A DNA stretch of 34,339 bases from Candidatus Omnitrophota bacterium. GTDB taxonomy: Bacteria > Omnitrophota > Gorgyraeia > Duberdicusellales > 4484-171. The stretch spans positions 1 through 34,339 of the forward strand of contig JAQUWY010000018.1 of NCBI GenBank assembly GCA_028692655.1. Reading direction: 5' to 3'. Made by a program: the position numbers and the translations under genes. This document shows, piece after piece, positions 1,661 through 28,949 of the stretch. Numbering within the stretch: the first letter of the stretch is position 1; each line of letters starts with the position of its first letter. The notes under the pieces were generated by a model. That model was not told the origin of the DNA. It saw only the letters and a program-made list of their open reading frames with translations, and ran no database searches.

Positions 1661-2047
1661 GTCCACATTCTATAGAATATACAGGTTGAGGCTTAAAAAA
1701 AGTCCACGGTCCACGGTCGATAGTCCATAGACGACAGGCTATATAGGTTGAGGTTGAGGTTGAGGTTAAGGTTAAGGTTGAACCATTGTTGCAAACCCGC
1801 ATTGCAACGAGGTTGAGAAAAACTAAAAAACCAAAAGACCAAAAAACAGAAAACTAAAGAACTAAAAATAAAAAGACTGAAAAACTGAAAGACCAAAAAA
1901 CCAAAAAACACAAAAGCTAAAGAAATTAAAACCTTGCCTACCGGCAGGCAGGCGCTAACCAAAAACCGAACACCGCAAACCGATAATTTGATTCAAAACT
2001 TGAGACTTGCAACCTGAGACCTGAAACTTGTAACCTGCGACTCGAAT
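1661..2047 (+). repeat. Composite repeat cassette copy 1 (subfamily A)
   Basis: Order: 7-bp gtccacg module, 6-bp ggttRa array, 34-bp palindrome, 8-bp accaaaaa module, ccttgcctaccggcaggcagg palindrome, aaaccga module, cttgaga heptamers. Confidence 0.9.
1781..1814. repeat. 34-bp imperfect palindrome AACC-att-GTTGCAA-acccgca-TTGCAAC-ga-GGTT, copy 1
   Basis: Inverted repeat read directly; identical 34-mer at 7978-8011. Confidence 0.9.
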
Positions 2048-3792: not shown

Positions 3793-4632
3793 ATGAGGAT
3801 ATTTAAAAAACCTTTTGGTTATAAGCTAAACAATAAGAAAAAAAAGATACCGGACGGCTTATGGCAGAAATGTTCGCAATGCTCTAATCTTATTTTCAGT
3901 AAGTTATTAGATGAGAATTTGAAAATATGCCCAAAATGCGGGTATCATTTTTCACTTACTTGCTGGGAACGGATAGGATTTATCACTGACCCGGGGACTT
4001 TTAAGGAGGAATTTAAAGACCTTGAGTCTCTGGATCCCATTAGTTTTTCCGGCCCTAAAACATATCGAGAGAAATTAGAAGAGGCTAAAAGTTCAACCGG
4101 CTTAAAAGAAGCTGCAGTTATCGGTGTGGCGAAGATCGAAAACTATGACGCTGCTTTAGGAGTAACTGATTCACGTTTTATAATGGGCTCTATGGGTTCG
4201 GTAGTTGGGGAAAAAATTACCAAAATAAGCGAGGTGGCGCTTGAGAAGAAAATTCCGCTTATAATTATTTCGGGTTCCGGCGGCGGGGCCAGGATGTACG
4301 AAGGTATGTTCAGCCTTATGCAAATGGCAAAAACCAGCGCGGCTCTGGCTCGCCTCAAGAAGGCAAATCTTCCTTTTATTTCGATATTAACAAATCCTAC
4401 CATGGCGGGGGTTATGGCTTCTTTCGCCGGGTTGGGAGATGTTACTATTGCCGAACCCGGAGCTTTAATAGGTTTTACCGGCCCCAGAGTTATAAAACAG
4501 ACTATAAAACAGGACCTGCCTAAAGGGTTTCAAACCTCGGAATTTAACCTTGAACACGGATTGATTGACTTGGTTGTCAGCCGTAAAGAGCTAAAAACAA
4601 CTTTGGGTAAATTATTATATTATTTAACTTGA
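3793..4632 (+). CDS. accD: Acetyl-CoA carboxylase carboxyltransferase subunit beta
   Basis: N-terminal CxxC zinc ribbon (KCSQCSNLI...CPKCGYHF), SGSGGGARMYEG, GFTGPRVIKQT. Confidence 0.95.
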   Translation: MRIFKKPFGYKLNNKKKKIPDGLWQKCSQCSNLIFSKLLDENLKICPKCGYHFSLTCWERIGFITDPGTFKEEFKDLESLDPISFSGPKTYREKLEEAKSSTGLKEAAVIGVAKIENYDAALGVTDSRFIMGSMGSVVGEKITKISEVALEKKIPLIIISGSGGGARMYEGMFSLMQMAKTSAALARLKKANLPFISILTNPTMAGVMASFAGLGDVTIAEPGALIGFTGPRVIKQTIKQDLPKGFQTSEFNLEHGLIDLVVSRKELKTTLGKLLYYLT

Positions 4633-5769: not shown

Positions 5770-7009
5770 TTTTCTTGCCTGCATAATTTTAGCGTTACTT
5801 TTTATCGACTCTCTTGTTCTGGCTTTTTCCAAAATGCCCGCGGTTGGTTTATTCTTCCTAACCGCATCTGCAACGGCCTTTCTGATTTTTCGTAAACTTA
5901 AAAAACATATTTTCTCGGGATATCACGGAGATATCGATTCAATAGAAGGAAAAATCAACCTTGCAGCGGAGAATATAACCGAGAAAGAAAAAATCCTCCA
6001 GAGCCTTTCGCCCAAACATGAGAAAATCTCTTTTTTATTTGAAGTTTCCAAGAAATTTATTGAGTTATCTGAACCGGAAGAAATCTATGATTTTCTTTTG
6101 TCTACCTTAGACAAGCTATTTCCCCAGGCAGACAATATCCTTGTTTTTGATTTTGAAAAAGGCCAGGATAACCTAAGCTTAGTTCGTTCGCTGAAAAGAA
6201 AATTTGCGGTTATAAAAGAAAAAAAAGGCGGAATAATAGACAGCTGGATTTTACGGCACAACAGTTCATTGTTGATAGATGATTTAATAAAAGATTTCAG
6301 GTTTGATTCTTACAGGGTGGAGGCTTATACGCAAAGAGGATGCCAGTCTTTCGTAGGCAGTCCATTTTCGATTGCCGAAAAACCTTTAGGCATCGTAAGA
6401 ATGGAATCGGTTAATCCCGGAGTATTCAGCTTTGATGATTCACGCCTCTTGCGCAATATCTGTGAACTGGCGGCTGTTGTGCTTGAAAGGGGAAGGCTTT
6501 TTGAAAAAGCCAGGGAATTGGCAATCAGGGATTCTTTGACTGGCCTTTATTTGAAAGACTATTTTTTTGACCGCCTCAACCATGAGTTTAAGCGTATGAA
6601 TGAAGGCACTTCCTGTGGAGTAATAATGGCTGATATTGACGATTTTAAAAAAATCAACGATACTTACGGGCATGTTGTCGGCGATAAAGTTATTATTGCT
6701 ATTTCTAAGATACTGGCCGCATTAACTAAGATTCCGGGTATGATTTGCGGCCGTTTTGGAGGAGAAGAATTTGTAGTTTTGTATCCTGGCTGCGGCTTAC
6801 AATCTCTCGTTGGTCTTGCTGAACGAATTCGCCAGGAAGTAAATAAAACAGATTTAAGTTTCCGTAGGAATACTGTTCATTTTACGGTATCGCTGGGGCT
6901 GGCTCTATACCCTGATACCGGCAAAGACGCCTTGAGCTTGGTTAAGGCGGCAGATGAGAGGCTTTACAAAGCAAAAAAAGAAGGCAAAGATAGAATATGT
7001 TTTTCTTAA
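5738..7009 (+). CDS. Membrane GAF-GGDEF diguanylate cyclase
   Basis: N-terminal TM, GAF-like region, RDSLTGLY, RFGGEEFVVLY; overlaps upstream gene by 32 bp so the start is uncertain. Confidence 0.88.
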   Translation: MILQKNLPLCNFLACIILALLFIDSLVLAFSKMPAVGLFFLTASATAFLIFRKLKKHIFSGYHGDIDSIEGKINLAAENITEKEKILQSLSPKHEKISFLFEVSKKFIELSEPEEIYDFLLSTLDKLFPQADNILVFDFEKGQDNLSLVRSLKRKFAVIKEKKGGIIDSWILRHNSSLLIDDLIKDFRFDSYRVEAYTQRGCQSFVGSPFSIAEKPLGIVRMESVNPGVFSFDDSRLLRNICELAAVVLERGRLFEKARELAIRDSLTGLYLKDYFFDRLNHEFKRMNEGTSCGVIMADIDDFKKINDTYGHVVGDKVIIAISKILAALTKIPGMICGRFGGEEFVVLYPGCGLQSLVGLAERIRQEVNKTDLSFRRNTVHFTVSLGLALYPDTGKDALSLVKAADERLYKAKKEGKDRICFS

Positions 7010-7965
7010 TAGCTGGATTTATATTGTTTGCCGGGTTTCTGTTCAACGAGTTTTTTCTCCTTAAAAGATTCCGCCGGAAAGAAGCAAACAGGGAACACTC
7101 GTTAGCGGAGGATGTCCGGATTTTAGAGAAAAGAGGCGAGGATATAAACAACGAAGTTAAGAAGTGGGAAAATATCTTGTCAGAACGCTTTTCGTTTTAC
7201 GATATCACAAGAAAGATAACACCATATCTTGATAAAGAAGAGCTGGCCCGGGCGTTTATAGGGGAGATGAAATATCTAAACGGGGTTGAAAGCGTGGAGT
7301 TTTACGGCTCTTCCCGAAGAAAGGGCTGGCTTACTTTTAAACTCAAATCCTTTGAGCAAGATTATATATGTATTAAAACCACTTCCCATGAGGTCATAGA
7401 ATGCCTGCCTTATTTTATAAAGTTATTTATTCTCTGCCTTGAAAGAATAGACCTGTACCGAAAGCTTCAGGAGCTATCCATACATGATTCATTAACGGGG
7501 ATTTACAACCGTAGGTATTTTATGCAGCGGTTTGCCGAAGAGTTCCAACGGGCAAAACAATTTAATCTTAATCTGGCTTTTCTTATGATTGATATAGATA
7601 ACTTTAAAAAAATCAACGATACTTATGGGCATTTAGTGGGGGATGTTGTTTTAAGAGAAGTAGCAGTTGTTATAAAAGAAAGTACCCGCGAAATAGATTT
7701 TCTTGCCAGGTTTGGCGGAGAAGAATTCTCGGCAGTTTTGTTAGAAACAGGTAAGGATGAAGCGGTTGGGGCGGGTAAGCGTATAAATGAGAGGGTGATT
7801 CAGAAAAAGATTCACGCTTTTGATGAAATTTTAAGTGTGAGTGTAAGCATAGGCGTAGCATGCTTTCCTCAAAATGCTTTATACCCCGATGTTCTTCTGG
7901 AAGTAGCTGATAAAGCGATGTATCAGGCTAAACTTTCCGGCCGTAACCGCGTTTGTTTCTTCTAA
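6997..7965 (+). CDS. Membrane-anchored GGDEF diguanylate cyclase
   Basis: HDSLTGIYNRRYF, REIDFLARFGGEEF (GGEEF with RxxD I-site); overlaps previous gene by 13 bp. Confidence 0.9.
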   Translation: MFFLIAGFILFAGFLFNEFFLLKRFRRKEANREHSLAEDVRILEKRGEDINNEVKKWENILSERFSFYDITRKITPYLDKEELARAFIGEMKYLNGVESVEFYGSSRRKGWLTFKLKSFEQDYICIKTTSHEVIECLPYFIKLFILCLERIDLYRKLQELSIHDSLTGIYNRRYFMQRFAEEFQRAKQFNLNLAFLMIDIDNFKKINDTYGHLVGDVVLREVAVVIKESTREIDFLARFGGEEFSAVLLETGKDEAVGAGKRINERVIQKKIHAFDEILSVSVSIGVACFPQNALYPDVLLEVADKAMYQAKLSGRNRVCFF

Positions 7966-7977
7966 ATCCAATTCATC

Positions 7978-8278
7978 AACCATTGTTGCAAACCCGCATT
8001 GCAACGAGGTTTTGCAACGAGGTTATAGGCTGTACAGGTTGAGGCTTAAAAAAAGTCCACGGTCCACGGTCGATAGTCTATAGACCATAGACGATGCAGA
8101 TTGAGGCAAAGGCAAAGGCTAAGGTTGAGGTTAAGGTTAAGGTTGAGGTTGAGGTTGAGGAAAACCGAAGAACCAAAGAACTGAAATACTGAAAGACTAA
8201 AAAACGAAAAGACTTTAAAGCCTTGCCTACCGGCATGCAGGTGCTAAGCGAAAACCGAACACCGCAAACCGAACTGTA
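7978..8278 (+). repeat. Composite repeat cassette copy 2 (subfamily B) preceded by 34-bp palindrome (7978-8011)
   Basis: gtccacg heptamers, ggttRa hexamers, gaaccaaag/actgaaat module, ccttgcctaccggcatgcagg, aaaccga module. Confidence 0.9.
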
Positions 8279-15059: not shown

Positions 15060-15447
15060 GCCCCACTGCAGTTTAATCCGATATATAAGAATGAATAAAC
15101 TTACCGGCAGCCGCAATAATAAAGTCATTATTGTTTTTGACGGTTCATATAATCTTGCGGCTTTCCAGGAGAGAGGGGATTATGAATTATTTTTTAGCCA
15201 GAACTTAAGTGCTGATGAGCTTATTCACAAGAAGCTGAAATCTTTATTAAATAAGAGCCAAGTCGTTGTGGTGAGCGACGATAGAGAGATAAGGGACTTT
15301 ACTAAGCGTGAAGGAGCCAGGAGTCTAAGAATTAATGAGTTTATAAAAATAAAACAGCCGGATGTATCAGAGGCAAAAGATATTGACTATTCTCTCCAGA
15401 GAGAAATTACCGAAGAAATGAGAAAGATATGGTTGAAGGATAAGTAG
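14992..15447 (+). CDS. YacP-like NYN domain (PIN-like) ribonuclease
   Basis: YIIDGFNLVHR, VIIVFDGSYN, VVVSDDREIRDFTKREGAR; overlaps upstream gene by 68 bp. Confidence 0.85.
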   Translation: MLVYIIDGFNLVHRVKNLKNSVEPHCSLIRYIRMNKLTGSRNNKVIIVFDGSYNLAAFQERGDYELFFSQNLSADELIHKKLKSLLNKSQVVVVSDDREIRDFTKREGARSLRINEFIKIKQPDVSEAKDIDYSLQREITEEMRKIWLKDK

Positions 15448-15762
15448 TCGATAGTCTACAGTCCATAGGCTATACAGGCTGAGGCTCGAGAAAGTCCATA
15501 GACGACAGGCTATATAGGTTGAGGTTAAGGTTGAGGTTGAGGTTAAGAAAAACTAAAAAACCAAAAGACAAAAAAACAGAAAACTAAAGAACTAAAAACA
15601 GAAAGACTGAAAAACTGAAAAACCAAAAAACACAAAAGCTAAAGAAGTTAAAACCTTGCCTACCGGCAGGCAGGCGCTAACCAAAAACCGAACACCGCAA
15701 ACCGATAATTTGATTCAAAACTTGAGACTTGAGACCTGAAACTTGGAGCTTACGGCTTATTC
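15448..15762 (+). repeat. Composite repeat cassette copy 3 (subfamily A)
   Basis: Same module order as copy 1 but without the 34-bp palindrome; abuts the NYN stop codon. Confidence 0.9.
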
Positions 15763-18575: not shown

Positions 18576-18815
18576 CTACCTGCCGGTAGGCAAGGCTTTA
18601 AAGTCTTTTCGTTTTTTAGTCTTTCAGTATTTCAGTTCTTTGGTTCTTCGGTTTTCCTCAACCTCAACCTTAACCTTAACCTTAACCTTAACCTTAGCCT
18701 CTGCCTTTGCCTCAATCTGCATCGTCTATGGACTATGGACTATCGACCGTGGACCGTGGACTTTTTTTAAGCCTTAACCTGTATAATCTATCGCCTGTGG
18801 ACTGTGGTTTGCGAC
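18576..18815 (-). repeat. Composite repeat cassette copy 4 (subfamily B, reverse orientation)
   Basis: Reverse complement matches copy 2 across the gtccacg, ggttRa, accaaag/actgaaa and palindrome modules. Confidence 0.9.
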
Positions 18816-28671: not shown

Positions 28672-28920
28672 TAATACAGGTAGAGGCTTAATAAAGTCCA
28701 CAGTCCATAGTCCATAGACGATAGACTATATAGGTTGAGGTTGAGGTTAAGGTTAAGGTTGAGGTTAAGAAAAACTAAAAAACCAAAAGACAAAAAACAG
28801 AAAACTAAAGAACTAAAAACAGAAAGACTGAAAAACTGAAAGACCAAAAGACCGAAGAACATAAAAACTAAAGAAGTAAAAACGCTAACTGAGAACCGAA
28901 TATCGCAAGCCGATAGCTTG
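28672..28920 (+). repeat. Composite repeat cassette copy 5 (subfamily A, lacks both palindromes)
   Basis: Aligns to copies 1 and 3; lacks the 34-bp palindrome and ccttgcctaccggcaggcagg. Confidence 0.9.
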
Positions 28921-28949
28921 GCCTGTGACATGATACTCAATGCAATAGT

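Follow-up and report, generated by a model that had tools for sequence, protein, structure and literature searches.

The window analysed here, a stretch of 34,339 nucleotides from a Candidatus Omnitrophota bacterium, carries the same 34-bp palindrome at two places that differ in their relation to a duplicated low-complexity cassette, which raises the question of what this palindrome is and how it reached them. We conclude that it is very probably a non-autonomous repetitive extragenic palindrome (REP) belonging to a system with a REP-associated tyrosine transposase (RAYT, or TnpA-REP). The full sequence of the 34-mer is AACCATTGTTGCAAACCCGCATTGCAACGAGGTT, and an earlier note on this DNA was right that two identical copies occur, copy 1 at 1781–1814 (+; AACC-att-GTTGCAA-ACCCGCA-TTGCAAC-ga-GGTT) and copy 2 at 7978–8011 (+). 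The strand folds as a hairpin with an imperfect stem (AACC-ATT-GTTGCAA / TTGCAAC-GA-GGTT) and a DNA minimum free energy of -7.9 kcal/mol (z = -2.8). Searches of the window's own genome returned 3–6 matches, depending on the stretch searched, compared with none for the reversed-pattern control; together with the fold, this argues that the 34-mer is not a chance sequence. Copy 2 begins 12 bp after the stop codon of a GGDEF-type ORF (6997–7965) and is followed in tandem by the extra half unit already noticed, TTGCAACGAGGTT (8012–8024, +), an exact 13-bp repeat of 7999–8011 that duplicates the right arm and tag, that is, the last 13 bases of the 34-mer. The half unit may result from slippage or from an aberrant RAYT cut. 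A search for further half units gave only the known sites and weak, chance-like matches; a left-half duplicate is present at the 5' REP of a RAYT unit in a related genome, G017, described below.

Five related low-complexity intergenic cassettes were observed in the window, at 1671–2045, 8024–8275, 15447–15750, 18576–18803 (-) and 28680–28925, composed of GTCCACGG/CATAGAC words, a ggttRa array, an A-rich array, the palindrome CCTTGCCTACCGGCAGGCAGG, and CCGAACACCGCAAACCGA. As described before, REP copy 1 lies in cassette copy 1 with the ggttRa array on one side and the A-rich array on the other, and REP copy 2 precedes the whole of cassette copy 2. Cassette copies 3 and 5 had been proposed as natural empty sites, and they behave as such: the two arrays join directly as GGTTAAG-AAAAAC (15541–15553, +, and 28763–28775, +), and the palindrome appears as a clean gap when they are aligned to cassette copy 1. 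The arrays are also joined directly within cassette copy 2 (GGTTGAGG-AAAACC; 8153–8166, +) and in cassette copy 4, which has the inverse orientation (18650–18663, -), giving four empty junctions rather than the two claimed. Because the junction is empty in four of the five cassettes, gain of the palindrome in cassette copy 1 is the simpler reading. Relative to cassette copies 3 and 5 the insert measures about 35 bp; at the copy 1 junction, its placement is uncertain by 5 bp (GGTTG).

The window's own genome (G000) is a Candidatus Omnitrophota-type metagenome-assembled genome of 1.65 Mb in 62 contigs, 91% complete. It holds six REP copies, two in the window and four at other positions outside it (C1:3965; C56:5269, -; C57:14525; C57:19460, -). 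All six are intergenic, which has a chance probability of about 3e-6 given 12% intergenic DNA, and both orientations occur. The C1 copy follows the stop codon of a short ORF, with no cassette around it and an A-rich stretch about 70–100 nt downstream, and each of the C56 and C57 copies borders an A-rich array, in one orientation or the other. The earlier note had held that the 34-mer sits at differing positions, and had named one fixed cassette position for all other copies as the finding that would speak against this; looked at genome-wide, the six copies do not share one position, and one is in no cassette. Association with arrays was borne out in part: none of the six copies is more than about 100 nt from a low-complexity intergenic array (chance about 0.01, a post hoc value based on about 46% of the window's intergenic DNA being that close), but the positions differ and the array is of the ggttRa type only once. 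The A-rich arrays of C1, C56 and C57 resemble those of the cassettes, and G017 has its own arrays, of GTAGTTTGTTGTTAG type. An exact 21-mer was absent from GTDB contigs and an exact 17-mer from IMG/VR, two collections from which own-genome records may be left out.

Hairpins with the same loop were found in related genomes. In G017, from a sister genus of the same family, the stem reads GTTCCAA/TTGGAAC in place of GTTGCAA/TTGCAAC and the loop ACCCGCA is unchanged; the hairpin of G006 is AACCAAATTAACAA-ACCCGCA-TTGTTAATTTGGTT. A survey of 384 genomes of the class found the 13-mer CAAACCCGCATTG in 45, with up to 36 occurrences per genome and about 200 sites in total, compared with 7 for the reversed control. 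Across 38 copies, 93.8% of stem cells were paired, both arms had changed in five of eight pairs, and the covariation score was 0.338 against 0.080 for shuffled data (0 of 500 shuffles reached the score) and at most 0.104 for slid controls, although most copies had been preselected for stem pairing (7 or more of the 8 pairs), so that both the paired fraction and the score are inflated. Safer evidence than the covariation score is that complementary stems come in several forms (GTTGCAA, GTTCCAA, TTAACAA and ACTCCAA). G186, G246, G174, G281 and others contain REPIN-like pairs of opposed copies about 24 bp apart, which form one larger palindrome. Six hairpin copies, five of them pointing the same way, were observed between unrelated genes within about 9 kb of one G017 contig (C47; L023, 8282–17280). 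G186 (L051, L123), where REPIN-like pairs occur, G163 and G220 have 13–36 ACCCGCA half-sites each, and no Y1 gene with flanking ACCCGCA hairpins was found in these three genomes. Their hairpins are either orphan populations or moved by another transposase. At 27 Y1 loci in five genomes with orphan hairpins, no flanking pair was present, and the only hairpins were two single, distant ones.

The suggestion of a matching REP-associated Y1 transposase proved fruitful, since palindromes with the same loop bracket a Y1 gene in related genomes. An ORF of 219–220 aa lies between two hairpin copies in G006 (C26) and G017 (C70). Both proteins match Pfam Y1_Tnp above the cut-off and also NCBIfam REP_Tyr_transpos, though with scores of 55 and 71 bits that fall short of the cut-off of 80 set for this model; the TnpA-REP structure 4er8 was matched by sequence with E = 0.004. 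At G017:C70 (L024, about 4010–4060), the downstream hairpin abuts AGAATACCTATAAGGGATTGAAAC, which resembles a CRISPR repeat end. Relatives and GTDB contigs supplied a sample of about 100 distinct Y1 genes, among which ACCCGCA hairpins were present on both flanks of a transposase of about 220 aa in six genomes (G017, Elusimicrobia UBA5214, Omnitrophica GWF2_43_52 [G281], G184, G109 and G006) and flanked none of the other roughly 90 genes. The HUH motif THIH is conserved, as is a C-terminal W..SSY region. The flanked transposases occupy similarity ranks 1–6 to the G017 protein, the query itself being one of the six. A tree, which is independent of this ranking, placed five of the six in one clade (86/70), and the loop-type label changed twice on it, compared with 5.8 times after shuffling. 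The other RAYTs of this larger clade go with different palindromes, whose loops are mostly ACG, CCG or CGT. The flanking hairpins are direct in G017, G006 and G281, inverted in G109 and UBA5214, and mixed in G184.

Direct flanking hairpins, from which recombination or excision could leave a solo copy, raise the prospect that solo hairpins did not move alone but are remnants of an IS200/IS605-like REP-RAYT-REP unit whose gene was lost. We regard this as unlikely: no trace of a transposase surrounds the copies in the window's own genome, there are more hairpins than cognate RAYT genes wherever several were counted, and G109 and UBA5214 have inverted flanking pairs. The own assembly, 91% complete, yielded no cognate RAYT, the best matches being paralogues of 300–335 aa with 31–38% identity, so that the copies there look orphaned. 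Probably their RAYT has been lost, or else its gene belongs to the roughly 9% of the genome that is missing from the assembly.

We also considered that the 34-mer might be an immobile functional RNA hairpin, such as a terminator, mRNA stabilizer or protein-binding site, under selection at gene ends. Its placement is compatible with such a role, every copy being intergenic and both REP copy 2 and the C1 copy lying close behind a stop codon, and compensatory stem changes would likewise be expected. Yet one copy sits inside a low-complexity array, both orientations occur, the neighbouring genes are unrelated, and in six genomes hairpins of this type go together with a transposase gene. Nor is there a T tract; the 34-mer was not listed by a terminator scan, on which grounds an intrinsic terminator was rejected, and it belongs to no Rfam family, an Rfam search of the window having returned a tRNA only. 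An RNA function is thus very improbable.

The earlier note had related the AACC and GGTT ends to the ggtt hexamer and suggested target preference or homology-based entry, a reading that our results do not support. A 5' AACC and a 3' GGTT occur together at the base of 24 of 84 RAYT-flanking palindromes, a set that includes the ACCCGCA type, and at least one of the two occurs in more; a control placed farther out gave 0 of 4, a small sample. The AACC...GGTT pair is found at RAYT-flanking palindromes in loci without a ggttRa array as well. The own genome contains an example at C54:23351–24327 (L030, L196, L197), where a Y1 gene has a 37-bp palindrome, AACCTTACAAAACAGTTTGAAACTGTTTTGTAAGGTT, on both sides. 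This palindrome, AACCTTACAAAACAGTT-tga-AACTGTTTTGTAAGGTT, has a third, solo copy at C34:128667 (L195). The C54 gene and its palindromes are a second REP/RAYT system in this genome. Since the tag recurs at unrelated RAYT-flanking palindromes, including those of C54, it is the element's own and was not borrowed from the ggttRa array. Spread of the palindrome by slippage or through GGTT microhomology with that array, independently of a transposase, would fit the GGTTG ambiguity at the copy 1 junction and the slippage-like half unit at 8012–8024, but it is the least probable of the alternatives weighed here, given the same tag on palindromes of other sequence and the copies outside the window, which do not lie in ggttRa arrays. 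Length and palindromy also brought a loxP/dif-type recombination site and a CRISPR repeat to mind, which were set aside for the lack of a tandem array and the linkage to a Y1 transposase. An integron attC site was rejected for arms that, by eye, do not fit the core motifs RYYYAAC/GTTRRRY.

For the preferred explanation, a REP mobilized by a RAYT, we propose the following mechanism. In single-stranded form, the 34-mer folds into a hairpin whose ACCCGCA loop is conserved, whose stem is specific to the lineage and whose base is formed by AACC and GGTT. The RAYT is an HUH/Y1 single-strand endonuclease that, by analogy with TnpA-REP (PMC8266576), would bind this hairpin as single-stranded DNA, presumably recognizing loop and stem. 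It may then have cut beside the hairpin base, the hairpin being moved or copied into intergenic DNA, and one such event could have placed copy 1 in the array junction.

REPs typically number tens to hundreds of copies, whereas copy number is low here, with six in this genome and up to 36 half-sites in G186. The system resembles the GTAG REPs and their RAYT/TnpA-REP (the REPtron; PMC2817692, PMC3733652, PMC8266576) in having an intergenic palindrome of 20–40 nt (here 34 nt), compensatory stem changes, a specific Y1/HUH transposase gene flanked by the repeats, and opposed repeat pairs in some genomes. It differs in that a 5' AACC pairs with a 3' GGTT in place of a one-sided GTAG, in its 7-nt ACCCGCA loop, in its occurrence in Omnitrophota and Elusimicrobiota, and in the direct flanking REPs of three of six units, those flanking RAYT having been described as inverted (PMC2817692). 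Unlike REPINs (PMC3116915), the repeats of the window and its genome are single units, plus one half unit. Like the ends of IS200/IS605 elements (IS608, ISDra2), the hairpins lie at both ends of a Y1 gene and can be read on one strand in three units; unlike in that family, solo hairpins dominate, and the best curated protein match is REP_Tyr_transpos and not an IS200/IS605 TnpA model. We assign the 34-mer to a variant RAYT group, as a REP-type element rather than a GTAG REP. More tentatively, this may be a system distinct from GTAG REPtrons, marked by a loop, ACCCGCA, conserved with its transposase subclade, a freely drifting stem, a symmetric AACC/GGTT and orphans that outlast the transposase. 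A literature search, mostly of papers available without subscription, found no report of REPs in Omnitrophota.

REP/RAYT mobile hairpins are best known from Proteobacteria, and the present findings add a low-copy form from uncultured Omnitrophota and Elusimicrobiota. With the loop fixed along with the transposase subclade and the stem free to vary, these hairpins offer a natural experiment on RAYT recognition, and the window itself provides a duplicated intergenic cassette that holds the palindrome, alongside four paralogous sites that are empty.
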